A stretch of DNA of 64,000 nucleotides from Methylomonas aurea (GTDB lineage Bacteria > Pseudomonadota > Gammaproteobacteria > Methylococcales > Methylomonadaceae): NCBI RefSeq assembly GCF_024505045.1, contig NZ_JANIBM010000005.1:1-64000 (forward strand), given 5' to 3'. The translations under genes were made by a program, and so were the position numbers. Of the stretch, positions 8,036 through 53,159 are shown one piece after another (positions within the stretch are counted from its first letter, which is position 1; every line of letters begins with the position of its first letter). The notes beneath the pieces were generated by a model. The model was not told the DNA's origin, did not search any database, and saw nothing but the letters and a program-made list of their open reading frames with translations.

Positions 8036-8374
8036 ATGAGCGATTGTTTGTTTTGCAAAATGGTGGCCGGCGAAATCAAGCCGGATGTGGTTTTCGAAGA
8101 CGATCAAGTCCTGGCGTTTCGCGACTTGCATCCGCAGGCGCCGCTGCACGTGCTGGTCATTCCGAAGCGGCACATCGCCACGTTAAACGAACTGGACGAC
8201 GCCGGACTGGGCGGGTATTTGTTGCAAACCGCCGCGAAGATCGCCAAAGACCTTGGTTATGCCGACAGCGGTTACCGAACTGTATTGAATTGCAACGCCG
8301 ACGGCGGTCAGACCGTGTTTCACCTTCACCTGCACCTGCTGGCCGGCCGACCAATGCACTGGCCGCCGGGTTAG
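8036..8374 (+). CDS. hinT: HIT family nucleotide hydrolase (HinT-like)
   Basis: This 112-residue protein carries the histidine triad FHLHLHLL near its C-terminus, and the N-terminal CLFCKMVAGEI segment typical of bacterial HinT. The family hydrolyses purine nucleoside phosphoramidates such as AMP-lysine. The ATG is preceded by GGGAG. It is the last gene of the dnaX operon and converges on the minus-strand gene that ends at 8407. The 32 bp between them hold a small AAGCC/GGCTT hairpin followed by TTTAA (8384-8400), possibly a weak shared terminator. Confidence 0.93.
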   Translation: MSDCLFCKMVAGEIKPDVVFEDDQVLAFRDLHPQAPLHVLVIPKRHIATLNELDDAGLGGYLLQTAAKIAKDLGYADSGYRTVLNCNADGGQTVFHLHLHLLAGRPMHWPPG

Positions 8375-8406: not shown

Positions 8407-9399
8407 TTATTGCGTTTCCAGCCAAGCTTTTATTTCCAGCGGCGTCATTGCCTTCCCGCCGAGATTATTCATAAAGTAATCGAAATAGCGGCGGCATTTT
8501 TCCAGGAAACGTTCCAGGTCGGCAGAGTTTTTCACATAAGGCGTGCCGCCGGGCATGACTGACGGGGAATGGAAGCTGAATACAAAAATCCGCACCCCGT
8601 CGCCCAACAGCGCCTGTGTCAGGCGACGCATTTCCGGTTCGCTATAATCTTCCGGCGAAAGGCGAATCCGTTCCAACATTCGCAGGCGTGCAACCACGCC
8701 GGAAACGCGCGTTTTTCGCAGCCAGGGCTGGGTCAGTTGCCGATACAGCGGTGTGCCGCCGTCACGTAAATAACCGACATAGCCCCCGGAGCCCGGTAAA
8801 CCGAGCAGGCGCCGTTGGCGGCCGAACCAGAACGGATCGCTGCTGAAGTCGGAATAATCCGGGCCGCCGTCGCCGCTATAGTCGATCGATGCCGCAACGC
8901 TGATATCGACCTCATAACCCAAATCTTCCAATATATCCGCTGTGTTGGGGCCGAAACCATAGCGGCCGGCCAAATAAGTCAACGGACGGCTGCCGAACGA
9001 AGCTGTGATTTGTTCGGTGAGCAGCCTGAGTTTTTCCCTTTCCAAATCGGCGGTTAAATTGCCGGGATAGGAGTTGCGGGCATTGATTTCTTCGTCGAAC
9101 GGCGGCGATACCCACGGATGCAGATGGGCGCCGATCAGCGCCCTAGCGCTGTCGGCATAGGCCTTCAAAGCAGCGACGGCCTCGGGTTTGGAGGCAATCG
9201 GATAGTCGATGACGTAATTGGGCACGATGCCGAAGCTATCGAACACGTTTTGCGCCCGATCGATATATTGCATGTGGCTAACGCCGGTAGCGTTGCGGTC
9301 GTAAGGCTTGCTCCAATCGAATTCTTCCTCGGTGTGGATGACGACCGATAAAATCGGGCGGGTCGCTGGATCAGGCTTGATTAAAGTGCGCTCGATCAT
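8407..9399 (-). CDS. Polysaccharide deacetylase-like protein
   Basis: This 330-residue protein has features of the NodB/polysaccharide deacetylase fold seen in WalW-type proteins: an early strand ending in HTEEEFDW, a central GAHLHPWVSPPF with paired His, the AGRYGFGPNTADILEDLGYEVD segment where deacetylases have R-P-P-x-G, and a late FVFSFHSPSVMPG with His. The usual N-terminal DDG is replaced by HTEEEF, so metal binding may differ. No signal peptide is visible, which suggests a cytoplasmic substrate. The start codon overlaps the stop of the upstream acyltransferase gene by 4 bp (ATGA), so the two are translationally coupled. It is the last gene of the E1-E2-ACP operon. Deacetylase activity is inferred, not certain. 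Confidence 0.65.
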   Translation of the reverse strand: MIERTLIKPDPATRPILSVVIHTEEEFDWSKPYDRNATGVSHMQYIDRAQNVFDSFGIVPNYVIDYPIASKPEAVAALKAYADSARALIGAHLHPWVSPPFDEEINARNSYPGNLTADLEREKLRLLTEQITASFGSRPLTYLAGRYGFGPNTADILEDLGYEVDISVAASIDYSGDGGPDYSDFSSDPFWFGRQRRLLGLPGSGGYVGYLRDGGTPLYRQLTQPWLRKTRVSGVVARLRMLERIRLSPEDYSEPEMRRLTQALLGDGVRIFVFSFHSPSVMPGGTPYVKNSADLERFLEKCRRYFDYFMNNLGGKAMTPLEIKAWLETQ

Positions 9400-10253
9400 A
9401 GGTCTAAGGCCACCAGTTCGGAATAGAAATTACTGATATCGGCCGCTGTCAGCGTGTCGCTGCGATATACCTTGTTTCGGTAGCCGGCCAACTCTATCGC
9501 TAAAGAAGGTACTTTCGGCAACAAACGCGATTCGACGCGGGTGTAAAAACGGCCTTGCCAGAACAGATGACTGCCCAGCGTGTGCCGGTAGCGTAAAAAT
9601 AATTCGGCGTCGCTGAAACCTAAGATCATGGCACCGTTCACGCCTTTCAAGCGACTCGGTTTCCAGGCTATATGGCAATAAGCGCCGGGCTTACCGACTG
9701 CTGCATGTTGCAACCACGACAAATGGCGATGTTCCGCAAACACTTTGCCGGCGTCGGCCGGCAGCACGTTGGCAATCGTTTCGTGATCGCTAATGACCTT
9801 CACGCCGGCGATTGCCGAAAACGGCCAAGGAAAATTCGGCCAAATCGCATGGCGTTCGTTCATCGGCTTGAATTTCAGAAACTGCAAGGTCTTGGAAACC
9901 ACCTCGGTCGGAGTCAGATCGGTGAAGTGGAAGCCCGGTTGCGATACCACCGCCATGGCTAAACGCATGCTTTGCGCCCGATACGCCTCCAGCACGCACC
10001 AGCTGGTAATGTTGCAAAAACGCTCTGCCTGGCCGCGGATAATGCGTTCGGCGTAAATGGCGCCGATGCCGCCGACGATTTTGCCGTTGTCGCGGATTAC
10101 AAATCCGTTATTCGGCTTTTCCGAAATCCAATTTTGCTGAAAGGCTTGCGCCCATTGCTCGGCGCTGCGCTCGTTACTCAAATTTTCGGTCAGGAATTGG
10201 CAAAACGGCAGCAGATCGCCGTCTTCGATCGGTTCGATGGTCGGCAATGCCAT
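9396..10253 (-). CDS. GNAT-like acyltransferase of unknown substrate
   Basis: This 285-residue protein has an N-terminal half resembling a GNAT fold: strand pairs NGFVIRDNGKIVGGIGAIYAER, then SWCVLEAYRAQSMRLAMAVV, where GNATs have the acyl-donor binding loop, and TPTEVVSKTLQFLKFKPMNE, like the last strand-helix of the fold. The canonical Q/R-x-x-G-x-G/A loop is not well kept. The C-terminal half (about residues 150-285) is unassigned and may be a second GNAT-like lobe. It lies between an acyl carrier protein gene and a deacetylase-like gene and is coupled to the latter. A role in moving an acyl group from the carrier protein to an amine or sugar is inferred from context only. Confidence 0.55.
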   Translation of the reverse strand: MALPTIEPIEDGDLLPFCQFLTENLSNERSAEQWAQAFQQNWISEKPNNGFVIRDNGKIVGGIGAIYAERIIRGQAERFCNITSWCVLEAYRAQSMRLAMAVVSQPGFHFTDLTPTEVVSKTLQFLKFKPMNERHAIWPNFPWPFSAIAGVKVISDHETIANVLPADAGKVFAEHRHLSWLQHAAVGKPGAYCHIAWKPSRLKGVNGAMILGFSDAELFLRYRHTLGSHLFWQGRFYTRVESRLLPKVPSLAIELAGYRNKVYRSDTLTAADISNFYSELVALDL

Positions 10254-10290
10254 GCGTATCGCCTCAGGTGAAGTTGAAGGGGCTTAACGG

Positions 10291-10557
10291 TTAGCCTTGT
10301 TTCCGCGCCAACAGAAAATCGGTCATAGCGTTGATCGAACCAAGATTATCGATGTTCATTTCTTCCTGCTTGATGCGAATATCGTAAGTCGCTTCGAACC
10401 AGACCACCAATTCCAGAATAGCACCGGAATCGAGAAAGCCGGTGGCCGGCAGAATGTCGTCGTCGGTTACCCCGCTGGCATCCATGCCCAGCGGTTCGGC
10501 AAGTTCGATGACTTTGGCGCGGAGCGCGGCTTTGATGTCGTCTGGATTCAGGCTCAT
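10291..10557 (-). CDS. Acyl carrier protein
   Basis: This 88-residue acidic helical protein has the phosphopantetheine attachment segment TGFLDSGAILELVVWFE, with Ser44 as the expected modified residue. The motif reads D-S-G rather than the D-S-L of fatty-acid ACPs, a form met in specialised carrier proteins (DltC-like and exopolysaccharide-associated ones). It is therefore probably not the housekeeping AcpP. It lies 25 bp downstream of the E2 gene and 37 bp upstream of the GNAT-like gene in a five-gene operon. This suggests that it carries an acyl group made by the E1/E2 pair. Confidence 0.85.
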   Translation of the reverse strand: MSLNPDDIKAALRAKVIELAEPLGMDASGVTDDDILPATGFLDSGAILELVVWFEATYDIRIKQEEMNIDNLGSINAMTDFLLARKQG

Positions 10558-10582
10558 GCGGTTATTCTCGTAGGAGTTAGGG

Positions 10583-11689
10583 TTATTTGGGCGGTTGCGA
10601 CAAGGCCTGCAAGACTTGGGCGACGTCGAAGCCGGTTAGCACGCGGTGGTCGTAGCTGGCGGCCAACACGGCGTGGCCGGCATTTTTCGGCGCAGCGTGG
10701 GCGACGATCAAAGAAGTTTGCGGCGGCAGAATTGGAATATGGCGGCTGACATTCCAGCGCGCCATGCTGGAAAACGACAAGGTTGCGCCGGATGCCTCCT
10801 GGGGCGGTAACTTGTGGCCCATGGCATGGCGTTGAATTTCGCCCAGGGCGCTGATGAATTGGGCGGTATCCATGTCTTGAGTGTCGCGGACCACGGTCAA
10901 ATACAGCATCGTGCCGGCCTGGACCGTAAAGCCCAAATTGACCGGTTGGTATTGGTAGCGTTGGCCGTTGACGATCGTGGAGTTGATGGCCGGGCGTTCG
11001 CGGCCGAGCTGGGCCAGCCGGAAGGCCATCAACGGCAACAGCGGCGACAACATCAATTTGTGTTCGGCGGCATAGGCGGCGGCATAGTCTTCCCACGGCT
11101 TGGGATCGTATTCCATTTCGATATAGCCGGCCGCGGCATGGTCGCGATGCCAGCTGACCGCATGTAGCATGCCGGCCGCTTCCGAGGATAACGCCACCAA
11201 TTCGCCGTTGACCGCCGGCATCTGTTCCTGGCGAGCGACTGGCGTCGCACCGGCGGCTGGGGTAATGCTTTTGCCGCTCCGAGCCAGCCAAGCTTCGATG
11301 TCCGCGACCGACAAGCGGTCGCCACTGGCCGGTATGCCGGCTGAGTCGAGGCCGAGCTTTTTCAATAGCGCGCGGGCTTTGGCGGTTGGCTGAAGGGATA
11401 TGCCATCCGGCGCGACCGATTCCTGCTTCTGATCGGGGATCGGCTCATCCGCCGATTCGCCCAACCAAAACAGGACAGAGCCGACCCGGGCTTTTTCCTT
11501 TTCGATGGCGTCGATTCTCAACACATAACCGTCTTGCTCCGCCACGACGTCGATCATCGACTTGTCGGTTTCGACGGTGGCGACGATATCGCCGCTGTTG
11601 ACGTACTGTCCCGGTTTGACGTCGATGCTGACGACGTCGACGAATTCGTCGTTGATATTGACGCAAGGGACGGTCTGGTAGCTGGCCAT
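10583..11689 (-). CDS. Dihydrolipoamide acyltransferase (E2)-like protein
   Basis: This 368-residue protein has the three-part layout of 2-oxoacid dehydrogenase E2. A lipoyl domain (residues 1-80) carries VETDKSMIDV, with Lys43 as the lipoylation site. A peripheral-subunit-binding domain lies at about 98-138 (TAKARALLKKLGLDSAGI). A catalytic domain ends with YDHRVLTGFDVAQ. In standard E2 the last motif is H-R-V-x-D-G; here the Asp is Thr, while the catalytic His remains. The ATG follows AAGGA and lies 8 bp after the E1 stop. No E3 (lipoamide dehydrogenase) is encoded nearby. It could act as a conventional E2, or hand its acyl group to the carrier protein encoded next. Confidence 0.85.
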   Translation of the reverse strand: MASYQTVPCVNINDEFVDVVSIDVKPGQYVNSGDIVATVETDKSMIDVVAEQDGYVLRIDAIEKEKARVGSVLFWLGESADEPIPDQKQESVAPDGISLQPTAKARALLKKLGLDSAGIPASGDRLSVADIEAWLARSGKSITPAAGATPVARQEQMPAVNGELVALSSEAAGMLHAVSWHRDHAAAGYIEMEYDPKPWEDYAAAYAAEHKLMLSPLLPLMAFRLAQLGRERPAINSTIVNGQRYQYQPVNLGFTVQAGTMLYLTVVRDTQDMDTAQFISALGEIQRHAMGHKLPPQEASGATLSFSSMARWNVSRHIPILPPQTSLIVAHAAPKNAGHAVLAASYDHRVLTGFDVAQVLQALSQPPK

Positions 11690-11697
11690 GGCAATCC

Positions 11698-13710
11698 TTA
11701 GAAAAGGTCGAGAATTTGGGCGATGATGGATTGTTCGTCGGGAATGATGCTTTTTTCCAGGCTGCGCGCCGAGGCAATCGGCACCGGCGGCGTGCCGATG
11801 CGGACTAACTGGCCGCTAAAACCGGATTCGAGCAACGCGGCAGCGATTTCGGCGCTGACACCGAAGTCGTGATGCGACTCTTCGACGATCACCACGATAG
11901 GCCGCTCCAGCAGATGGCCGATCATCGATGCTCGCGGCAGTGGCGAGAGTAAGGCCGGGGCGACGATTTCGACCGCCAGTTCCTCTTCGCTTTCCAGGCG
12001 CTGGGCCACGGTTTCGGCGATCGGCAGCATGCCACCGTAGGCCACCAGCGTGACATCGGGTTCGCCGGCGCCGCGTCGCAGGGTCGGAAATAACGCCACC
12101 GCGACGTCGTCCGCTGCCGGTATTGCCGTGTAATCGGCACTATCCAGCTTTTCGCCGTACAGTAATTTGTGTTCCAGAAACAGCGCCGGATACGGCCAGC
12201 GTTGCACGGCATTACTCAGCAAGCCCGCAACATCGTGGCGATGGCTGGGGTAGACCACGGTCAAACCTGGGACCGCAGTAAACAGATGCTCCGGGCTTTG
12301 GCTATGGGTCGGACCGTAGCCGCGCCGGCCGCCGCAGGGGGTACGTATCACCAACGGCACCGAGACGTCCGGAAACATGCCGGGAAATTTGACAGCATGG
12401 TTCAGCAGTTGATCCATGCACAGAGTCAGGAAATCGGCGAACATGATTTCCACGATCGGCAGATAGCCATCCAGCGCCAAACCGATCGCCGCGCCGGTAA
12501 TGCCGGCTTCGCTGATCGGCGTCGAAATCACCCGGCCGGGAAAATCGGTCGATAAACCTTGGGTAACCTTGAAGGCGCCGCCGTAAGGATCGTGCAAATC
12601 TTCGCCGATCACCAAAATGCGTTTATCGGAACCGAGCAAATGGCGCAGCGCGCTGTTGATGGCTTGGCGGACGTTGCTGCCGGGCGGCACATCGACTGCA
12701 GCTAAGTTTGTCGCTGGCAGCGGTAAATCGAAGATATGCGCCGGCGTTTCGCTGAGTGTCGCCTCCGGAGAGGCATCGGCCGCTTGGCGCACGGCTTCTA
12801 TAAATTGGCGATTATTTAATTCGATGGTGTTCCGGACGTCTTCCGGGAGGAGCCGCCCGAGCGCCGCCAGCGGGTCGCGCTTGCGTATTTGCTCCAGCTC
12901 ATCGGGATCGCGCAGATCGTCGCCCTTGCTGTGCGGCCCCATGCGGCGAGTGTCGATGACCAGAAAGCCGGGGCTGTGTCGGCCGCGAACCGTTTTGACG
13001 ACTTCGTCGACTTTCACCAAAAACTCAGGATCGTCGTCGGCCAAGCGCCAAGTCGGTAAGCCAAACGCGGTGCCGCGCGCCTCAATGTCGCCGCCCAAGG
13101 TGTGGCTACTGACCGTGGTTTGGGCGATGCCGTTATTTTCGACGACCACCAATAACGGCGCATTCCACACCGAAGCGAGATTCATCGCTTCATAAACCAA
13201 GCCCTGGCCCAGCGTGCCGTCGCCGATAATCGCTGCGACGATGCCGCCGCTGTTATGCAGCTTGCGCGCCAAAGCCAAGCCGGCACCGATACCCAGCATG
13301 CCGCCTTGCACGCCGTTGCTGTGAAAATGCCGGTGCACCAAGTGCTGGCTGCCGCCCCAACCGCCGCAGGCGCCGGCTTCGCGGCCCATGATCTCGGCGA
13401 CCAAGCCGACGAATTCGCCGGAATAGGTCAGAAAGTGGCCGTGGTTGCGGTGGTTGGAAAGCACGGCGTCGTCGGGATGGTTCAGTGCGCGGACGACCGA
13501 CAACGCCGCCAACTCCTGGCCGATACAGGTGTGGGTGGTGCCGGAAACCAGGCCGCGGGAAAATTGGTCCAGAACCAGCTGCTCGGTCAGACGGATCAAA
13601 TGGCCGTAACGGTAAATGCTTTCCGGGTCTAGCGCTATTTGCGGTTTGCCGTTGTCGTCTCTAGCCCAGGCCAGAAGTGCCTGATCGTTTGATTGTTGGC
13701 TGATTTCCAT
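11698..13710 (-). CDS. Fused 2-oxoacid dehydrogenase E1 (alpha-beta, TPP-dependent)
   Basis: This 670-residue protein joins the alpha and beta subunits of a branched-chain/acetoin-type E1. The alpha half carries the thiamine diphosphate motif from GDG (163-165) to NN (192-193), preceded by GGWGGSQHL. The beta half (from about 345) starts VRQAINSALRHLL and contains GEDLHDPYGGAFKVTQGL and TPISEAGITGAAIGLA. Such E1 enzymes decarboxylate a 2-oxo acid and reductively acylate the lipoyl group of E2. It is the first gene of the operon E1-E2-ACP-GNAT-deacetylase. About 120 bp separate it from rsgA upstream, enough for its own promoter. The 2-oxo acid used is not readable. Confidence 0.88.
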   Translation of the reverse strand: MEISQQSNDQALLAWARDDNGKPQIALDPESIYRYGHLIRLTEQLVLDQFSRGLVSGTTHTCIGQELAALSVVRALNHPDDAVLSNHRNHGHFLTYSGEFVGLVAEIMGREAGACGGWGGSQHLVHRHFHSNGVQGGMLGIGAGLALARKLHNSGGIVAAIIGDGTLGQGLVYEAMNLASVWNAPLLVVVENNGIAQTTVSSHTLGGDIEARGTAFGLPTWRLADDDPEFLVKVDEVVKTVRGRHSPGFLVIDTRRMGPHSKGDDLRDPDELEQIRKRDPLAALGRLLPEDVRNTIELNNRQFIEAVRQAADASPEATLSETPAHIFDLPLPATNLAAVDVPPGSNVRQAINSALRHLLGSDKRILVIGEDLHDPYGGAFKVTQGLSTDFPGRVISTPISEAGITGAAIGLALDGYLPIVEIMFADFLTLCMDQLLNHAVKFPGMFPDVSVPLVIRTPCGGRRGYGPTHSQSPEHLFTAVPGLTVVYPSHRHDVAGLLSNAVQRWPYPALFLEHKLLYGEKLDSADYTAIPAADDVAVALFPTLRRGAGEPDVTLVAYGGMLPIAETVAQRLESEEELAVEIVAPALLSPLPRASMIGHLLERPIVVIVEESHHDFGVSAEIAAALLESGFSGQLVRIGTPPVPIASARSLEKSIIPDEQSIIAQILDLF

Positions 13711-31056: not shown

Positions 31057-34000
31057 TTAGTTACCCGCTGCTTCTAGCAGATAAGTCAACCACAGCGACG
31101 ACAGTTTTTCCTGTACGGTGTTTTGTCGCAAGCGGGCGTTCAAATTCGGAAAGTCCACGTAATCCAGGGCTTGGTCCTGGTTGTAACAGGAATACATGAA
31201 GCTTTCCTCGCCACTTTCCGGATCGACGTGTTTGCACAAACACTGCGCGCAGACCCCTTTCATCATGCACTGCATCGGCGAGTTGATCGAGCCGACCGCT
31301 TCGTGGCCCTCCTTCAAATACGGTTTCAGTACGCCGAAACGGGCTGCTTTCACCGCCGCCATCATCCGGTCGGAACCGATCACGATCAAGTGGTCGACAT
31401 CCTGCAATTGCAACGAAGTCTCGCCCAGTTGGCCTTCGGCGTAGGCGACCATCGCTTCGACGATGTTGCCGACGAAGGTTTTATCCTGCGGCCGAGTCAC
31501 CGGGATGGCGTCGTTGCCCGGAATGTTATCGACGGCCCAGACGATGACGTCGGAAGCTTCCTCGATTTCCGGCACCTTGAACAAGTCGATGCGGTTGCGG
31601 TAACCGGCGAAATACAGCACTTTGTTGCCGGCGGCACGCATCGCTTTGCCGATCGAGAACAATACCGCGTTGCCCAAACCGCCGCCCAGCAGCAATACGG
31701 TCTTGCCGGTCGGAATCTCGGTCGGGGCGCCGGTGACGCCCATCAATACCAACGGATCGCCGGGTTTCCAGGTCGCGCACAGGCGGCTTGAACTGCCCAT
31801 TTCCAATGCGATCAAGGATACCAGGCCTTTTTCCTTGTCAACCCAGGCGCCGGTCAATGCCAAACCTTCGGCAGCCAGCGTGGTGCCTTCGACTACGGGT
31901 GCCAGCGATTCGTAGTTCTGCACCCGGTAGAACTGGCCGGGCTCGAAATGCTTGGCCGCCGCCGGTGCCTTGATCACGACCTCGATAATCGTCGGGGTTA
32001 AGCGGTTGACTTCGACGACGCGGGCCAGGAACAACTCGTCCAGTTTGTCCTGCAAGCCGTGTAGTTGGGCGTCGCGCGCGCCTTGTTGGGCTGGATCGAG
32101 CGCGGCCAGTTGGTTGGCGAACAGCTTGACGATATACGGGTAACCGTCCTTGGCGCTGGCCATCGCTTTAACCACATTGCCGGCGTAAACCGGGTGGTTG
32201 TCGCCATAGAAGGTGATAAAGCGGCCCTCGCTTTGGTAGGAGGTAAACGGTGCCGGTTTTCCGACCTTGACTTGGGCTTCGTCGGCCATCGGTGCCAGTT
32301 GCGCCTTGCCGTCCAACCAGTCGGGTTCGTGGCGCTTGTAGAACTTGCCTTCCATCGCGAAAGTGCGCGGATGCTCGGACTGGTAGATCGTGTTCGGCGC
32401 GGTGCCGGCGGCAATGAACAAGCCGCGCAAGCTCACTTCGACTTCGGCGGTCTTCTTCCAGCGGCCTTCCTGCTCGGTCAGTTTCTCGAAGCGGACGGCT
32501 TTTAAGTGGCCGTATTGGTCTTCGATCGCTTCCAGCGGGCTCATGCCTTCGGCCAGATAAATACCTTCGGACAAGGCTTCGTGAATTTCTTCGTGGTTCT
32601 GCCGGTAGGCCGGCGAATCCTTGATGCCTTTGCGGTAGAACAGCGTGACGCCACCCCATTGTTTCAGGAAAGGCAGGAAGTTCGGCGTTTCGCCGGCCGC
32701 GGCAGCGCGCTCGCGTTCTTGTTCGATCACGCGGCCGTGGGCCAGGAATTCTTCCAGAATTTCCAATTCCTCGGCGTCGTAACGGCGGCGGACTTCGGCT
32801 TCGCCGTATTTCGCCACCAGTTTCTCGTAACGGTGCAGGATTTTGCTGACCTGGCCGGGGTAATACGCCAGTAATTCGGTTGCGGTATCGATCGCAGTCA
32901 AGCCGCCGCCGATCACGCCGGCTGGCAGCCGCACTTGCAGGTTCGCCAGCGAGGATTCCTTGGCGGCGCCGGTCAATTGCAGGCCCATCAAAAAGTCCGA
33001 GGCCTTGCGGATGCCGCGGGTCATGTTGTTTTTCAGGTCGATAATGGTCGGCTTGCCGGCGCCGCTGGCGATGGCAATATGGTCGAAGCCCAATTCCCAG
33101 GCTTCTTCGATGGTCACGGTGCCGCCGAAGCGAATACCGCCGTAGCATTTGAAGGCGCTGCGGCGCAGCAGGGTCAGGTAAATCACTTTCAGGAAGTTTT
33201 TATCCCAGCGCACGGTAATGCCGTATTCGGCGACGCCGCCGAAACCGAGCATGACCCGTTTGTCCAGATCTTCGTACAAATCCTTGAAATCGATGATCGG
33301 CATTGGCGGATTGTTGCGGTCGCCGGTCAAATGCAGCGGCAACGGCTCGATTTTCAGGGCGTCGATGCCGACGACGCCGAAGCCTTCGTTCAACAGGTAG
33401 TGCGCCAGGGTGTAACCGGCCGGTCCCATACCGGCGACCAGCACGTTCTTGCCGTTGTAGGGCAGGGCGACCGGGCGTTTGACGTTAAGCGGGTTCCAGC
33501 GGGTCAGCAGGCTGTAAATCTCGAAACCCCAAGGCATGAACAACACGTCGGTCAGCACGTTGGTTTCGATCTGCGGAATGTTGACCGACTCGGTTTTTTG
33601 ATAAATACAGCCGCGCATGCAGTCGTTGCAAATCCGGTGGCCGGTGCCCGGGCACATCGGGTTGTCGATGATGATCATCGCCAGCGCCCCGATGTTGTCG
33701 CCCTGGCGTTTGACCACGTGCATCTCGGAAATCTTTTCCTCCAGCGGGCAGCCGGTCATCAACGCGTTCAGATGGTTGGTTTTGAATGTGCCGTCTTTTT
33801 TGTTCTTGATGCCTTTCGAGCAGGAATCGTTGTCGCGGTCGTGGCAGTAAATGCAGTGGTCGACCTCGTATAGGGTCTGGCGCTGGTTGAAACGCTTGTC
33901 GGTCAAGGCGAAGCCGTCGCGGCGACGATGGTGATGGTCGTCGCAGGCCCAAACGCCATAGCCGTCTTGAGCTACCGTTTCGTGGTCGACCAGATTGTCC

Positions 34001-34656
34001 AGGTTGGTTTTTTCCGGGACTTTGAAGCTCAGCCATTTCGCGACCAGGCTTTGCAATTCGGGAACGTGTTTGGCAGCAAAGCTCCAACGGCAAACCGTGT
34101 CGTAACCGGCAAGGGCTTCCGCGCTGGGGTTTTCCTGTTGCGCCGCGCGCCACAGGTCGGCACCGAGTTGGCTGACGGCCAGTTCCGGATCGGTTGCGAA
34201 CAGGTCCTGTTTGTCGGCGGCGGCCAATAAACCGTCCATTTCTGCGCGCAATGCCGGAATGTCCCAGCCGTCGACGGTTTGGCCCTTGAACAATTTGGCC
34301 AGATTGCCGACGATTTCGGTGCGATAAGTAAACACGCTGTCGAACTCGCCGCGAATATGGCTGATTTGCTTGTCGCGCACGTCTTGGACGTTAAACAGCT
34401 TGGCAACGAAGGTGCCGACCAGCGGCGCCGTCCTGACCAATAGCTCCGAAATCTGTTCCGGCTTCATGCCGTCGCCGCCGCAAGCGCGATACGAGGCGAT
34501 TTCGTCGAACAGAGCCGAGTCGTGTTGCTTGACCGATTGGTCGAACACGGTCAGCAAATCGGCCAGGCGTTTGCTGTCGTAAAGGTCTTTGTATTCGAAG
34601 CCGGGGATGCCGAGAGTCAGTTGGGTCAGTTCGCGAGTATTTAGCTGTTGGGTCAT
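31057..34656 (-). CDS. Large NfnB/NfnA-like fused NAD(P)H flavo-iron-sulfur oxidoreductase
   Basis: This 1199-residue protein joins three parts. The first 250 residues are helical and unassigned. Next comes a GltD/NfnB-like region: Cys clusters HCIYCHDRDNDSC (near 268) and CPGTGHRICNDCMRGC (near 342), FAD motif VLVAGMGPAG (near 405) and NAD(P) motif VIGGGLTAID (near 580). The C-terminal 320 residues resemble NfnA/PyrK: a ferredoxin-reductase beta-barrel, NAD motif LLLGGGLGNA (near 990) and a [2Fe-2S]-like cluster CMMKGVCAQCLC...YSC (near 1130). Nfn is an electron-bifurcating transhydrogenase using ferredoxin, NADH and NADP. Here both subunits seem to be one chain; whether it bifurcates is unknown. 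The ATG at 34656 is one codon inside a TTG-initiated frame. Confidence 0.8.
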   Translation of the reverse strand: MTQQLNTRELTQLTLGIPGFEYKDLYDSKRLADLLTVFDQSVKQHDSALFDEIASYRACGGDGMKPEQISELLVRTAPLVGTFVAKLFNVQDVRDKQISHIRGEFDSVFTYRTEIVGNLAKLFKGQTVDGWDIPALRAEMDGLLAAADKQDLFATDPELAVSQLGADLWRAAQQENPSAEALAGYDTVCRWSFAAKHVPELQSLVAKWLSFKVPEKTNLDNLVDHETVAQDGYGVWACDDHHHRRRDGFALTDKRFNQRQTLYEVDHCIYCHDRDNDSCSKGIKNKKDGTFKTNHLNALMTGCPLEEKISEMHVVKRQGDNIGALAMIIIDNPMCPGTGHRICNDCMRGCIYQKTESVNIPQIETNVLTDVLFMPWGFEIYSLLTRWNPLNVKRPVALPYNGKNVLVAGMGPAGYTLAHYLLNEGFGVVGIDALKIEPLPLHLTGDRNNPPMPIIDFKDLYEDLDKRVMLGFGGVAEYGITVRWDKNFLKVIYLTLLRRSAFKCYGGIRFGGTVTIEEAWELGFDHIAIASGAGKPTIIDLKNNMTRGIRKASDFLMGLQLTGAAKESSLANLQVRLPAGVIGGGLTAIDTATELLAYYPGQVSKILHRYEKLVAKYGEAEVRRRYDAEELEILEEFLAHGRVIEQERERAAAAGETPNFLPFLKQWGGVTLFYRKGIKDSPAYRQNHEEIHEALSEGIYLAEGMSPLEAIEDQYGHLKAVRFEKLTEQEGRWKKTAEVEVSLRGLFIAAGTAPNTIYQSEHPRTFAMEGKFYKRHEPDWLDGKAQLAPMADEAQVKVGKPAPFTSYQSEGRFITFYGDNHPVYAGNVVKAMASAKDGYPYIVKLFANQLAALDPAQQGARDAQLHGLQDKLDELFLARVVEVNRLTPTIIEVVIKAPAAAKHFEPGQFYRVQNYESLAPVVEGTTLAAEGLALTGAWVDKEKGLVSLIALEMGSSSRLCATWKPGDPLVLMGVTGAPTEIPTGKTVLLLGGGLGNAVLFSIGKAMRAAGNKVLYFAGYRNRIDLFKVPEIEEASDVIVWAVDNIPGNDAIPVTRPQDKTFVGNIVEAMVAYAEGQLGETSLQLQDVDHLIVIGSDRMMAAVKAARFGVLKPYLKEGHEAVGSINSPMQCMMKGVCAQCLCKHVDPESGEESFMYSCYNQDQALDYVDFPNLNARLRQNTVQEKLSSLWLTYLLEAAGN

Positions 34657-34710
34657 CAAGTTATTCCGGAAATGTACGCTTGAAGTTGGAAATCAGAATT
34701 CGGGAGACGA

Positions 34711-43417: not shown

Positions 43418-43936
43418 ATGCAGCACCTCAGGCCTAACGTGCTCGACTTCGAAGCTTCCGGATTCGGCAACGACAGTTATCCGATCGAAGTCGGCGTGGT
43501 ATTGGGAACCGGGCAAAAGTATTGCGCATTGATCCGGCCGGCCGGCAACTGGGTGTATTGGGACGAACAAGCCGAAAAGGTGCACGGCCTGAGTCGGGAC
43601 ACGTTGCTGAACTACGGTAAGCCGATCCGGCAAGTCGCCGTCGAACTCAACGAGTTTTTAGTCGACAGAACCGTGTATTGCGATGGCTGGGTGGTCGACA
43701 AACCGTGGTTGTCCCGCCTGTATTACCAGTCCGGCATGCAACCGAGTTTTTACCTGAGCGCGTTGGAATTGATTCTGAAGGAAACCCAGATGGAGATCTG
43801 GAGCCAAACCAAACGCCAGGTGATCCAGGAGTTTGCCATGCAGCGGCATCGCGCCAGCACCGATGCCTTGATCATTCAGGAAACTTACGCCCGCACCCGG
43901 CAACTAACCGATGCCGGCGGTTATGCCCCGGCTTGA
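43418..43936 (+). CDS. DnaQ-like 3'-5' exonuclease
   Basis: This 172-residue protein shows the DEDDh exonuclease pattern: [10 protein letters not shown] (D, E), a mid-chain [11 protein letters not shown] (D) and QRHRASTDA (H, D). Length is close to a minimal exonuclease domain. I chose the ATG at 43418, which has AAAGGA 7 bp upstream, over a GTG at 43400. The substrate (DNA proofreading or RNA) is not readable. It stands between the mazG operon and phosphoketolase, with its own upstream gap of about 105 bp. Confidence 0.85.
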
Positions 43937-44016
43937 ACGCGCCGGCGGGCGCTATACTTTTAACCTGTATCGAAGACTTACGACGCTACATTTTTTACTC
44001 CAACGGTGAAGCAGTA

Positions 44017-46383
44017 ATGAATAAGACAACTCCAGTTTCCGATAACCAATTGCAACAAATCGACGCGTACTGGCGTGCCTGTAACTACTTGGCTGCCGGC
44101 ATGATTTACCTGCGCGACAATCCGTTGCTGCGCCAGCCCTTGCAGCCCGAACACATTAAGCGCCGTCTGCTCGGCCATTGGGGGTCCAGTCCGGGTTTGA
44201 GTTTTGCCTACGTGCATTTGAACCGGATCATCAAACAATACGACCAGAATGTGTTGTTCATCGCCGGTCCAGGCCACGGCGCGCCCGGCGTGTTGGCGCC
44301 GGCCTATCTGGAAGGCAGCTACAGCGAGATCTACCCGAACAAGGGCGAAGACGAAGAAGGCATGCGCCAGTTTTTCAAAGAGTTCTCGTTTCCGGGCGGC
44401 ATTGGCAGCCATTGCACGCCGGAAACGCCGGGTTCGATCCACGAGGGCGGCGAGTTGGGTTACAGCATTTCCCACGCCTTCGGCGCAGCCTTCGACAATC
44501 CGGATTTGCTGGTCGCAGCGGTGGTCGGCGACGGCGAGGCCGAAACCGCGGCGCTGGCGACGTCCTGGCATTCCAACAAATTCCTGAATCCGGCTCGCGA
44601 CGGCGCGGTGTTGCCGATCCTGCATCTGAACGGCTACAAGATCAACAACCCGACGCTGTTGTCGCGCATCTCCCATCAAGAGCTGGAAGACCTGTTCAAA
44701 GGCTACGGCTGGACGCCGTATTTCGTCGAAGGCGACGAGCCGCTGGCGATGCACCGGAAAATGGCCGAGACGCTGGACGCTTGTTTACTGCAAATCCGCA
44801 AGATACAACAGGCGGCTCGCAACGGCGGCGAAGTGGAGAGGCCGCGTTGGCCGATGATCGTGCTGCGTTCGCCGAAAGGCTGGACCGGGCCCAAGTTCGT
44901 TGATGGCCATAAAGTCGAAGGTTTCTGGCGCGCCCACCAAGTGCCGATGGCCGCGGTGCGAGAAAATCCGGCGCATTTACAACAACTGGAAGACTGGCTG
45001 CGCAGCTACAAACCGGAAGAATTATTCGACGCCGACGGCCGCTTGCTTCCCGAGCTGAAAGCCCTGGCCCCGCAAGGCCAGCGCCGGATGAGCGCGACGC
45101 CGCACGCCAATGGCGGCGTGTTGCGCCGGGCGTTGCGGATGCCGGATTTTCGCGATTACGCGGCGGTATTGCCCGGCCCCGGCAAAATCAGCGCCGAAAA
45201 CACCCGCCCGCTCGGCCAGTTCCTGCGCGACATCATGGCCGACAATATGGCCAACTTCCGCGTGTTCGGCCCGGACGAGAATAGCTCCAACAAGTTGGAT
45301 GCGATTTACGCCGCCAGCAAGAAAACCTGGCTGGCCGACTTCTTGCCGGAAGATGCTGACGGCGGCGAGCTGTCTGTCGATGGTCGGGTCATGGAAATGC
45401 TGTCGGAACACACGCTGGAAGGCTGGTTGGAAGGCTATCTATTGACCGGCCGCCACGGCTTTTTCTCGACCTACGAGGCTTTCGTCCATGTGATCGACTC
45501 GATGTTCAACCAGCACGCCAAATGGCTGGCGATGATGCAGGCGGTCTCCTGGCGGGCACCGGTGTCGTCGTTGAACCTGCTGATCACATCCACCGTTTGG
45601 CGCCAGGACCACAATGGTTTTACCCACCAGGATCCCGGTTTTCTGGACCTGGTGGTCAACAAAAGTCCGGCGGTCACTCGCATTTATTTGCCGCCGGACG
45701 TCAATTGCCTGTTGGCGGTGGCCGACCATTGCCTGCGTAGCAGCAACTACGTCAACGTCATCGTTTCTGACAAACAAAAGCACCTGCAATATCTGGACAT
45801 CGACGCGGCGATCAAGCATTGCAGCAAAGGTATCGGCATTTGGGACTGGGCCAGCAACGATGCCGGCAGCGAACCGGATCTGGTGATGGCTTGCGCCGGC
45901 GATATACCGACCAAGGAGGCTCTGGCCGCGACCGTGATCCTGCGCCAACATTTTCCCGAATTAAAGGTCCGCTTCGTCAACGTGGTCGATTTGTACAAAC
46001 TGACGCCGACCAGCGAGCATCCGCACGGTTTGAGCGATAAGGATTTCGACAGTCTGTTTACGCTGGACAAACCGATTCTGTTCAACTTCCATGGTTATCC
46101 GTGGTTGATCCACCGCCTGGCCTACCGCCGCACTAACCATAAAAATCTGCATGTGCGCGGCTACAAGGAAAAAGGCAGCATCAACACGCCGCTGGAGTTA
46201 GCGATTCAAAACGAAATCGACCGTTTCAGTCTGGTGATCGATGCGATCGACCGCTTGCCCGGCTTGAAAGTCGCCGGCGCCCACGTCAAGGAAAAGATGC
46301 GCGACAAGCAGATCGAATGCCGGCATTACGCCTACGAGCATGGTGTGGATTTGCCGGAGGCCGATAATTGGCAGTGGCCCTAA
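44017..46383 (+). CDS. xfp: Phosphoketolase
   Basis: This 788-residue thiamine diphosphate enzyme cleaves xylulose-5-phosphate and/or fructose-6-phosphate with phosphate to acetyl-phosphate. The N-terminus ([21 protein letters not shown]), [17 protein letters not shown], the TPP motif [21 protein letters not shown]...NGYKINNPT, and the central FLPEDADGG and [13 protein letters not shown] segments match Xfp along its full length. Such enzymes supply acetyl-CoA from the RuMP cycle in several methanotrophs. No acetate kinase gene is adjacent. Confidence 0.95.
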
Positions 46384-51362: not shown

Positions 51363-53159
51363 ATGACCGTCACTGCTACCCCCAACGGTTTTCATCTGAA
51401 CGACGCCGGCCGCCGCGTGGTGGTCGATCCGGTGACCCGGATCGAAGGCCACATGCGTTGCGAAGTCAATATCGACGAGGAAAACATCATTCGCAACGCG
51501 GTGTCCAGCGGCACCATGTGGCGCGGCCTGGAAGTGATCTTGAAAGGCCGCGACCCGCGCGACGCCTGGGCCTTCGTCCAGCGCATCTGCGGCGTTTGCA
51601 CCGGTACCCACGCCTTGACCTCGGTACGCGCGGTCGAGGATGCGTTGAAAATCAAAATCCCGGAAAACGCCAACTCGATCCGCAACATCATGCAATTGAG
51701 TTTGCAGGCCCACGACCATTTGGTGCACTTCTATCATCTGCACGCGCTGGATTGGGTCAACCCGGTCAACGCGCTGAAAGCCGATCCGGTCGCGGTCTCG
51801 GCGTTGCAGCAACAGATTTCGCCGAGCAATCCCAAATCCTCGCCCGGCTATTTCCGCGACACCCAAAACCGGCTGAAAAAATTCGTCGAATCCGGCCAGC
51901 TCGGCCCGTTTAAAAACGGTTACTGGAGCAATCCGGCTTACTTGCTGCCGCCGGAAGCCGACTTGTTGGCAGTCACCCACTATCTGGAAGCCCTGGATTT
52001 TCAAAAAGACATCATGAAAATCCGCACCATCTTCGGCGGCAAGGACCCGCATCCGAACTGGCTGGTCGGCGGCGTGCCGTGCGCGATCAATATCGACGGC
52101 GTCGGTGCGGTCGGCGCGGTCAATATGGAGCGCTTGAACCTGATTTCGTCGATCATCGACCGCACCATCACTTTTATCGACCAAGTCTACATTCCGGACT
52201 TGCTGGCCATCGCCCAGTTCTACAAGGGCTGGCTCTACGGCGGCGGCTTGGCCGGCGCCAGCATGCTGTCCTACGGCGACATTCCGGATAAGGCCAACGA
52301 CTACTCGGCCGCCAATCTGCTGATGCCGCGCGGCGCGATTATCAACGGCGACCTGAGCAAGGTGCACGCAGTCGATCTGACCGATCCCAAGCAGATTCAG
52401 GAATTCGTGCCGCACTCCTGGTACAAGTACGCCGATGAAGCAGTTGGCCTGCATCCGTGGGATGGCGTCACCGAACCGAACTACAAAATCGGCGCTAAAA
52501 CCAAAGGCGATCGCACCCACATCCAGGAGCTGGACGAATCGGCCAAATATTCCTGGATCAAGGCACCGCGCTGGAACGGCCACGCGATGGAAGTCGGTCC
52601 GCTGGCCCGCTATGTGATCGGTTACGCCCAAGGCAATAAGGAAATTACCGAGCAAATCAATTTCGTGTTGAAAACCCTGGACGTGCCAGTCAGCGCGCTG
52701 TTCTCGACGCTGGGCCGCACCGCGGCCCGCGGATTGGAAGCGCAATGGGCCGCCGGCAAGATGCGTTATTTCATGGACAAGCTGATGAGCAACATCAAGT
52801 CCGGCGATTTGGCTACCGCCAACGTCGAGCGCTGGGACCCGGATACCTGGCCGAGCAGCGTCAAGGGCGTGGGTTTCACCGAAGCCCCGCGCGGCGCGTT
52901 GGGCCATTGGCTGAAAATCGAGGATACCAAGATTGCCAACTACCAATGCGTGGTACCGACTACTTGGAACGGATCGCCACGCGACGAGCAAGGCAATATC
53001 GGCGCGTTCGAGGCTTCGTTGATGAATACCAAAGTCGAGCGGCCGGAAGAGCCGGTCGAGATTTTGCGCACATTGCACAGCTTCGATCCGTGTCTGGCTT
53101 GTTCGACCCACGTCATGAGTCCAGACGGCCAGGAACTGACCCGCGTCAAGGTGCGCTAA
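51363..53159 (+). CDS. hupL: [NiFe] uptake hydrogenase large subunit
   Basis: This 598-residue subunit holds the Ni-Fe site. The N-terminal ligands lie in [10 protein letters not shown] and the C-terminal ligands in DPCLACSTH, followed by a 15-residue tail beginning VMSPDG that HupD should remove after the His. Sequence and length match E. coli HyaB. A very long frame on the opposite strand is a GC-driven shadow. Confidence 0.98.

Follow-up and report, generated by a model that had tools for sequence, protein, structure and literature searches.

A two-carbon unit can be loaded onto an acyl carrier protein (ACP) by relatives of the E1 and E2 components of 2-oxoacid dehydrogenases, which is chemistry known from a small number of antibiotic pathways. 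For scleric acid, the section of PMC6335953 devoted to SclQ1-4 describes an ACP, a thiamine pyrophosphate (TPP)-binding protein, a pyrimidine-binding/transketolase C-terminal protein, and a lipoyl/acyltransferase protein. According to the same section, their homologs are QncN, QncL, and QncM, which guide the attachment of a C2 glycolicacyl unit; for Scl, a ketose phosphate is proposed as the donor. Likewise, the dnacin paper (PMC7570522), where it treats this step, presents DinU (306 amino acids [aa]), DinT (an ACP of 76 aa), and DinS (754 aa) as homologs of NapB, NapC, and NapD, and has the three Din proteins form a hydroxyethyl unit from xylulose 5-phosphate that is then handed to the ACP. 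In these accounts, the described relatives of the E1/E2/ACP core work in nonribosomal peptide synthetase (NRPS) pathways (PMC6335953, PMC7570522). Here we analyze a five-gene operon of Methylomonas aurea that, in our judgment, represents loading chemistry like that of the naphthyridinomycin (Nap) and quinocarcin (Qnc) systems in a new setting; the core chemistry itself has already been described. The operon lies in a 64,000-nucleotide stretch of DNA (NCBI RefSeq assembly GCF_024505045.1, contig NZ_JANIBM010000005.1, positions 1 to 64,000), the whole of which is hereafter called the window. Its genes are as follows.

11698 to 13710, minus strand: fused E1 (alpha plus beta), 670 aa, TPP dependent, with Pfam E1_dh, Transket_pyr, and Transketolase_C in one protein
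10583 to 11689, minus strand: E2, 368 aa, with Pfam Biotin_lipoyl and 2-oxoacid_dh
10291 to 10557, minus strand: dedicated ACP, 88 aa, Pfam PP-binding at 21.6 bits (cut-off 20.8)
9396 to 10253, minus strand: tandem-GNAT protein, 285 aa, presumed N-acyltransferase, Pfam Acetyltransf_1 at 21.2 bits (cut-off 20.7)
8407 to 9399, minus strand: NodB/CE4-fold deacetylase-like protein, 330 aa, by fold prediction

These genes are spaced by gaps of 8, 25, and 37 bp and one 4-bp overlap, and no E3 gene is among them. The operon is flanked by rsgA and an M48 gene on one side and by HIT, recR, and dnaX genes on the other. A first-pass annotation of this DNA had given the same gene set, coordinates, strand, gaps, and overlap, all of which are borne out by open reading frames (ORFs), Pfam matches, and predicted folds. 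Between positions 8300 and 14000, sigma-70-like sites were absent (2.5 expected) and terminator-like sites numbered 7 (7.9 expected). Because both counts are below expectation, they add nothing to gene spacing as evidence for a transcription unit.

We see about an even chance that the operon specifies an acyl loader coupled to a carrier protein, together with the user of the loaded group, with a ketose-derived glycolyl group being placed on a glycan amine by the GNAT and NodB-fold proteins. Every substrate and product in this scheme is inferred from what was observed, namely gene order, predicted folds, conserved residues, and distribution. E1, using TPP, would draw a C2 unit from a donor; its likeliest source is the ketol portion of a ketose phosphate, for example xylulose 5-phosphate. 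On the lipoyl domain of E2, oxidation of this unit would give an acyl-dihydrolipoyl thioester, with glycolyl as the likeliest acyl group, and the lipoyl arm would be reoxidized by the E3 of housekeeping complexes. The E2 core would next hand this group to the neighboring ACP, on its phosphopantetheine, instead of to coenzyme A (CoA). Finally, the tandem-GNAT protein would move the group from the ACP to an amine exposed through N-deacetylation by the NodB-fold protein; this amine probably belongs to an amino sugar in a surface glycan.

Related loci were collected with an E1 alignment that gave 335 relatives, of which the best 80 were used. These 80 loci were drawn with the patterns TTHTC[IL]GQ and VLSNHRNH, which select E1 residues 59-65 and 83-90, and these residues are therefore not counted as evidence. 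Gene content was read by six-frame hidden Markov model scans, and L066-L070 were dropped as duplicates of genomes already included. In an E1 tree of 99 rows, from which L111 and can_L020 were left out as too short, 66 rows form a single clade (SH-aLRT, the Shimodaira-Hasegawa-like approximate likelihood ratio test, 100; quick method). Outside this clade fall the order's canonical E1s, other distant E1s, and the tree's four Streptomyces/Kitasatospora rows. Together with one short row the clade comprises 67 loci, 9 of which are closely related loci of the genus.

The E1-E2-ACP core is contiguous in 53 of the 56 clade loci that extend at least 3 kb after E1, and this arrangement spans Pseudomonadota, Acidobacteriota, and Gemmatimonadota. 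As for the remaining three, L117 keeps the order, its E2 being spread over different frames; in L105 and L145 the ACP lies upstream, together with hyd2-hyd1-GNAT. The gene order thus proves to be conserved; a lack of such conservation, coupled with an ACP that is not phosphopantetheinylated, was one outcome that the first-pass annotation had named as speaking against its proposal. Among 201 genomes of the order, the subfamily E2 occurs in 9 of 28 genus genomes including the window's own, and beyond the genus in G160 (another genus of the same family) and in G052 and G086 (another family, 47-49% identity). The identical five-gene order is shared by the window, the 8 other genus genomes that were examined for it, and G160, where it is kept though the flanking genes differ from those of the window. 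The arrangement thus goes beyond what chance would give.

The residues needed for carrier coupling are likewise conserved. The window's ACP has the motif FLDSG with S44 (codon 10428-10426), and the serine of this DS pair is kept in all 60 loci with an ACP match. The E2 lipoyl domain carries ETDKS with K43, and the lipoyl Lys motif is present in 63 of 64 loci with an E2 match, the remaining one ending before the motif. The linker that follows looks by eye like a peripheral-subunit-binding domain. In the E2 core, the motif YDH348RVLTG has Thr in place of the Asp of HxxxDG, and 57 of 60 readable clade E2s have likewise lost this Asp (Ser in 24, Asn in 16, Thr in 12, His in 4, and Gly in 1); 10 of the 12 Thr-type E2s are near relatives of the window's E2 from the Methylomonas family. 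All 17 readable Streptomyces E2s (introduced below) have Asn at this position. The Asp is kept in 20 of 20 canonical E2s, which comprise 18 loci of the order (like the 13 E1s called canonical below, these are the best other matches within the order and not characterized enzymes) and both other E2s of the window's own genome, each carrying HRxxDG. The loss of this Asp may be a sequence mark that separates ACP-acylating from CoA-acylating E2s. Judging from the gene order and these motifs, it is quite probable that the E2 core acylates the adjacent ACP rather than CoA.

The E1 and E2 domain annotations taken by themselves would also suit an ordinary accessory 2-oxoacid dehydrogenase that produces acyl-CoA and has a carrier protein nearby by chance. 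We regard this as very improbable, given that the E1-E2-ACP order is kept across phyla, that both the HxxxDG motif and the E1 signature described below are altered, and that canonical components are encoded elsewhere in the genome. These include AceE on contig C9 with an adjoining E2, a second E2 on C22, and a lipoamide dehydrogenase (E3) over the cut-off on C28. Therefore, the operon is not the cell's only pyruvate dehydrogenase, and an E3 can be borrowed. The first-pass annotation had named sole-dehydrogenase status with a normal CoA product as the other outcome that would speak against it, an outcome that the separate AceE, E2s, and E3 contradict. The operon resembles pyruvate and branched-chain 2-oxoacid dehydrogenase complexes in its E1 and E2 domains, cofactors, and lipoyl Lys, but differs from them in its HxxxDG motif (DHRVLTG), E1 signature, dedicated ACP, and lack of an E3 gene. 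Also among the nearest known systems is D-alanylation by Dlt (carrier DltC, MBOAT DltB). Among solved structures, the window's ACP is closest in sequence to the D-alanyl carrier protein (E 3.3e-6), but its acyl group would come from E1/E2 and not from an adenylating ligase, and no MBOAT protein is encoded in the window's operon. Identity of the ACP with the ornithine-lipid ACP was rejected (NF052616, 36.2 bits versus a cut-off of 130).

The nature of the donor is addressed by E1. Outside the residues used to select the loci, 15 positions are fixed in 65 ACP-type E1s: Q122, G133, Q135, G168, Q197, G207, R212, F216, S261-K262-G263, K381, R463, Y465, and T468. All 15 residues are present in 18 of 19 Streptomyces E1s (L200 deviates at 9 positions), versus 0 to 2 of the 15 in the 13 canonical E1s. 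Among 11 further distant E1s, no signature position is kept in fewer than 9, and 10 of these 11 adjoin a lipoyl protein with hexapeptide-like repeats. In an alignment to human E1alpha, Q135 corresponds to a Val of 1ni4 (Met in 6cer), and S261-K262 corresponds to the HSMSDP loop. We take the Q135-aligned position of human E1alpha to adjoin TPP. The polar and basic signature residues, which are often apolar in the canonical E1s of the order, would fit a hydroxylated, phosphorylated donor.

The Streptomyces sample was drawn from the genus to which L140, a Streptomyces record, belongs; 19 of its 392 genomes have a close E1alpha at 1e-60. From these, 19 loci were taken with a protein query (one genome gave two, and G210 is the genome of L140). 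In 9 of the 19 loci, E1alpha is followed by a gap of 272-359 bp with an ORF that looks carrier-like by eye, and then by E1beta, and we call the Streptomyces loci Nap/Qnc kind on the basis of this architecture and not of a characterized sequence. In all 8 of these nine loci in which E2 was seen, E1beta is fused to it. By architecture, the E1alpha-carrier-E1beta layout is the DinU-DinT-DinS/Nap arrangement as set out in the dnacin paper's account (PMC7570522). In one Streptomyces locus (L189:7957-13948), genes for ACP, KASIII, E1alpha, E1beta, E2, ACP, and KASII-like proteins lie in a row, and this loading cassette apparently feeds a polyketide or fatty-acid-like pathway. Loci L190-L192 have ACP matches spaced as in L189, the locus in which the KAS genes were checked.

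Since the signature is common to Streptomyces enzymes whose kind reportedly uses a ketose phosphate, the label of 2-oxoacid dehydrogenase for the window's E1 appears doubtful. The original report of this kind of loading is that of Peng et al. (PNAS, 2012), which is cited in the dnacin paper. In the version of the first-pass annotation, the same carrier-coupled machine would act on a 2-oxoacid by decarboxylation; with pyruvate, hydroxypyruvate, or a branched acid as the substrate, this would give acetyl-, glycolyl-, or another acyl-ACP. The homology of E1 to pyruvate dehydrogenase E1 alpha and beta is consistent with this, hydroxypyruvate would yield the same dihydroxyethyl-TPP, and all of the evidence for ACP coupling holds equally. 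Nevertheless, we find a 2-oxoacid donor rather unlikely in view of the signature counts given above; moreover, a dedicated acetyl route seems pointless because AceEF already supplies acetyl-CoA. A ketose-derived glycolyl group is, on this sequence comparison, given somewhat better than an even chance of being the group that is loaded.

These comparisons change the standing of the core relative to the first-pass annotation, which knew of no described pathway with this gene set. For E1/E2/ACP, NapB/C/D (naphthyridinomycin), QncN/M/L (quinocarcin), and SclQ1-4 provide a precedent, and they and the Din proteins, as far as the published descriptions go, share with the window the combination, within one locus, of TPP-type E1 alpha and beta domains, a lipoyl-E2, and a dedicated ACP. 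Streptomyces loci built in this way share the E1 signature and a non-Asp HxxxNG motif as well. Unlike in those systems, E1 alpha and beta are fused in the window and E2 is separate; the window has no NRPS; GNAT and NodB-fold partners are present; some sister loci have XrtA exopolysaccharide neighbors; and the ACP-type E2s form a clade separate from the Streptomyces-type E2s. For the five-gene set as a whole, no description was found among the titles and abstract openings listed by searches of PubMed Central, a library that most subscription papers lie outside of, and among the matches listed for N-glycolyl polysaccharides nothing was relevant.

The acceptor side rests on the two remaining proteins and on the neighborhoods of sister loci. 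AlphaFold2 models were built from alignments of 38 sequences (GNAT) and 24 sequences (NodB-like). The fourth protein is predicted to be a tandem GNAT (mean predicted local distance difference test [pLDDT] 94.8), with Foldseek matches to 2ozg, Eis, and N-myristoyltransferases. The fifth is predicted to have a NodB/CE4 fold (mean pLDDT 85.9; top PDB matches 3qbu, 3cl6, and 3rxz), and its structural matches by Foldseek include HP0310, PuuE, and polysaccharide deacetylases. Its TEEEFDW, HLHPW, AGRYG, R146, D165, and SFH277 are invariant or nearly so across the 24 sequences. Among the 67 clade loci, a GNAT gene is seen in 50 and a NodB-like gene in 30; the NodB-like fifth gene occurs in 10 of 37 genus genomes. 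Six Acidobacteriota/Gemmatimonadota loci that are without GNAT, NodB-like, TIGR03101-type, and AMP-ligase partners carry a protein, c69, that is NodB-like by eye and has no Pfam match at 1e-5.

Several sister loci sit among XrtA/PEP-CTERM exopolysaccharide genes. The locus of G086 (L064) has the order xACP-E1-E2-ACP-hyd2-hyd1-GNAT, and its neighbors over the cut-off are a TIGR03098 ligase, a TIGR03099 decarboxylase, and a TIGR03101 hydrolase. Homologs of this hydrolase are found in 19 of the 67 clade loci, and AMP-ligase matches are found in 16 (L113 and L117 at lower score). XrtA, its ATPase, FemAB, and TIGR03087/03088 glycosyltransferases neighbor L091, and XrtA neighbors L118. Overall, an XrtA-type context is present in 22 of 67 loci, counted as hyd2 homologs (19) plus the XrtA-match loci L091, L109, and L118. 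MBOAT matches occur in 7 of 67 loci, and in L080 a DltB-like MBOAT (180 bits, cut-off 375) directly follows the ACP. The window's operon differs from these loci in standing alone: scans of the window's first 22 kb, and of the Methylomonas loci, gave no XrtA-associated genes. Two exosortases are encoded elsewhere in its genome, in stretches (one of which is cut by a contig end) that gave no match to the AMP ligase, the pyridoxal phosphate (PLP) decarboxylase, hydrolase 1 or 2, or an ACP. TIGR03099 (the exosortase-A-associated PLP decarboxylase) is over the cut-off in 7 of 37 genus genomes, the NodB-like gene is in 10, and both together are in none. Dependence of the operon on the TIGR03098/03099 system was rejected on these counts.

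From its relatives and predicted folds, the acceptor in the window is probably a glycan. That the amine acceptor is produced by the deacetylase, and on a glycan, we put at a little short of an even chance. The acyl-ACP might instead feed a small metabolite or lipid, such as an N-acyl amino acid or a lipopeptide-like product, with the NodB-fold protein acting on that molecule. This alternative, which we consider improbable, agrees with the NRPS setting of the described relatives noted at the outset, with the bare surroundings of the window's operon, with the KASIII-, KASII-, and ACP-like genes around E1/E2 in L189, and with the lower-scoring AMP-ligase-like matches in L113 and L117. However, no NRPS-sized gene is present among the genes of the window, where NRPS and polyketide synthase (PKS) genes were looked for and where the three longest ORFs encode Mfd, a glutamate-synthase-like fusion, and a phosphoketolase. 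In addition, the NodB fold is nearest to polysaccharide and peptidoglycan deacetylases, and the exopolysaccharide neighbors recur in about a third of the loci.

A number of observations weigh against a ketose-derived glycolyl loader that serves a glycan. The shared E1 residues could be ancestral and not donor determining, and likeness to the Nap, Qnc, Din, and Scl systems was judged from published descriptions, with sequences compared only for architecture-matched Streptomyces loci. Three alphaproteobacterial E2s (L106, L108, and L116) keep the Asp of HxxxDG. In an E2 tree of 95 rows, the ACP-type (100/100), Streptomyces-type, and canonical E2s fall into distinct groups, and a small number of distant rows have weak placement; given these separate clades and a root that the tree leaves unresolved, convergence or ancestry may account for the altered motif. 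The NodB-like protein has no Pfam or NCBIfam match, and its motifs, read by eye, appear to be variant forms of the metal-binding D-H-H and catalytic motifs of CE4. Of the 67 loci, 17 (some of them cut short) showed no GNAT gene, 37 showed no NodB-like gene, and 45, many of which are short, showed no XrtA-type context. No glycan gene was seen beside the window's operon in either flank, and no TIGR03099 match is over the cut-off in the window's genome. Finally, among the 369 genomes sampled across the class, the one with E1 at E <1e-150 was the window's own, and thus the system is patchy.

Considering both sides, we retain as the best reading the path that the first-pass annotation had drawn, from lipoyl-E2 to the dedicated ACP and on to an amine or sugar. 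It is favored by the conserved gene order, the invariant ACP serine, the GNAT and NodB folds, and the exopolysaccharide neighbors of some sister loci; its 2-oxoacid donor is the part that we judge less likely.

A related E1 in Lachnospiraceae (L131:8207-15487) is accompanied by a lipoyl-PglD_N-hexapeptide protein, LplA, E3, NeuB, and a cytidylyltransferase (Pfam). Because this pair lies in a NeuB cluster, the acyl group may pass from the lipoyl arm directly into a nonulosonate pathway, and it is possible that the lipoyl-hexapeptide protein is a lipoyl-to-sugar acyltransferase that bypasses both CoA and ACP. Among the 11 E1s of this lipoyl-hexapeptide group, hexapeptide-like runs reach 8 or more in 10 (none in L138), versus 3 to 5 in five E2-type loci. 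Pairs like that of L131 were found by pattern in L122, L124, L127, L128, L132, L133, L135, and L136.

We tentatively suggest, at less than even confidence, that these enzymes form an E1 superfamily distinct from pyruvate and branched-chain dehydrogenases, which would convert sugar phosphates to lipoyl glycolyl thioesters, serve at least three onward routes, and account for widespread glycan glycolylation. The three routes would be from E2 through ACP to NRPS/PKS, from E2 through ACP to GNAT plus NodB-fold proteins or MBOAT proteins on surface glycans, and directly through a lipoyl-hexapeptide acyltransferase, as in a nonulosonate cluster. If this is true, then N- or O-glycolylated glycans would be made without CoA or a monooxygenase in many bacteria. 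If our reading of the operon is right, central sugar phosphates would be linked to glycan acylation without CoA, and a reaction known from few antibiotic pathways would decorate surface polymers in environmental bacteria of several phyla. The proposal would then offer a concrete function for genes that domain annotation labels as pyruvate dehydrogenase, as well as for genes that, in some genomes, accompany the poorly understood XrtA exopolysaccharide loci.

Some further features were noted. GHMP-kinase-like matches (by eye and phmmer) lie near E1-E2 genes in L094:7631-9995, L112, and L120, and SIS-domain and nucleotidyltransferase genes are also near them in L094. Within the window, positions 31057-34659 encode a 1200-aa protein without a Pfam match at 1e-10 that has a sub-cut-off NCBIfam likeness to putative glutamate synthase beta/2-polyprenylphenol hydroxylase fusions, and positions 51363-53159 encode a nickel-dependent hydrogenase large subunit. 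The same window also carries a phosphoketolase (XFP) at 43678-46380, an enzyme that likewise draws a C2 unit from xylulose 5-phosphate.

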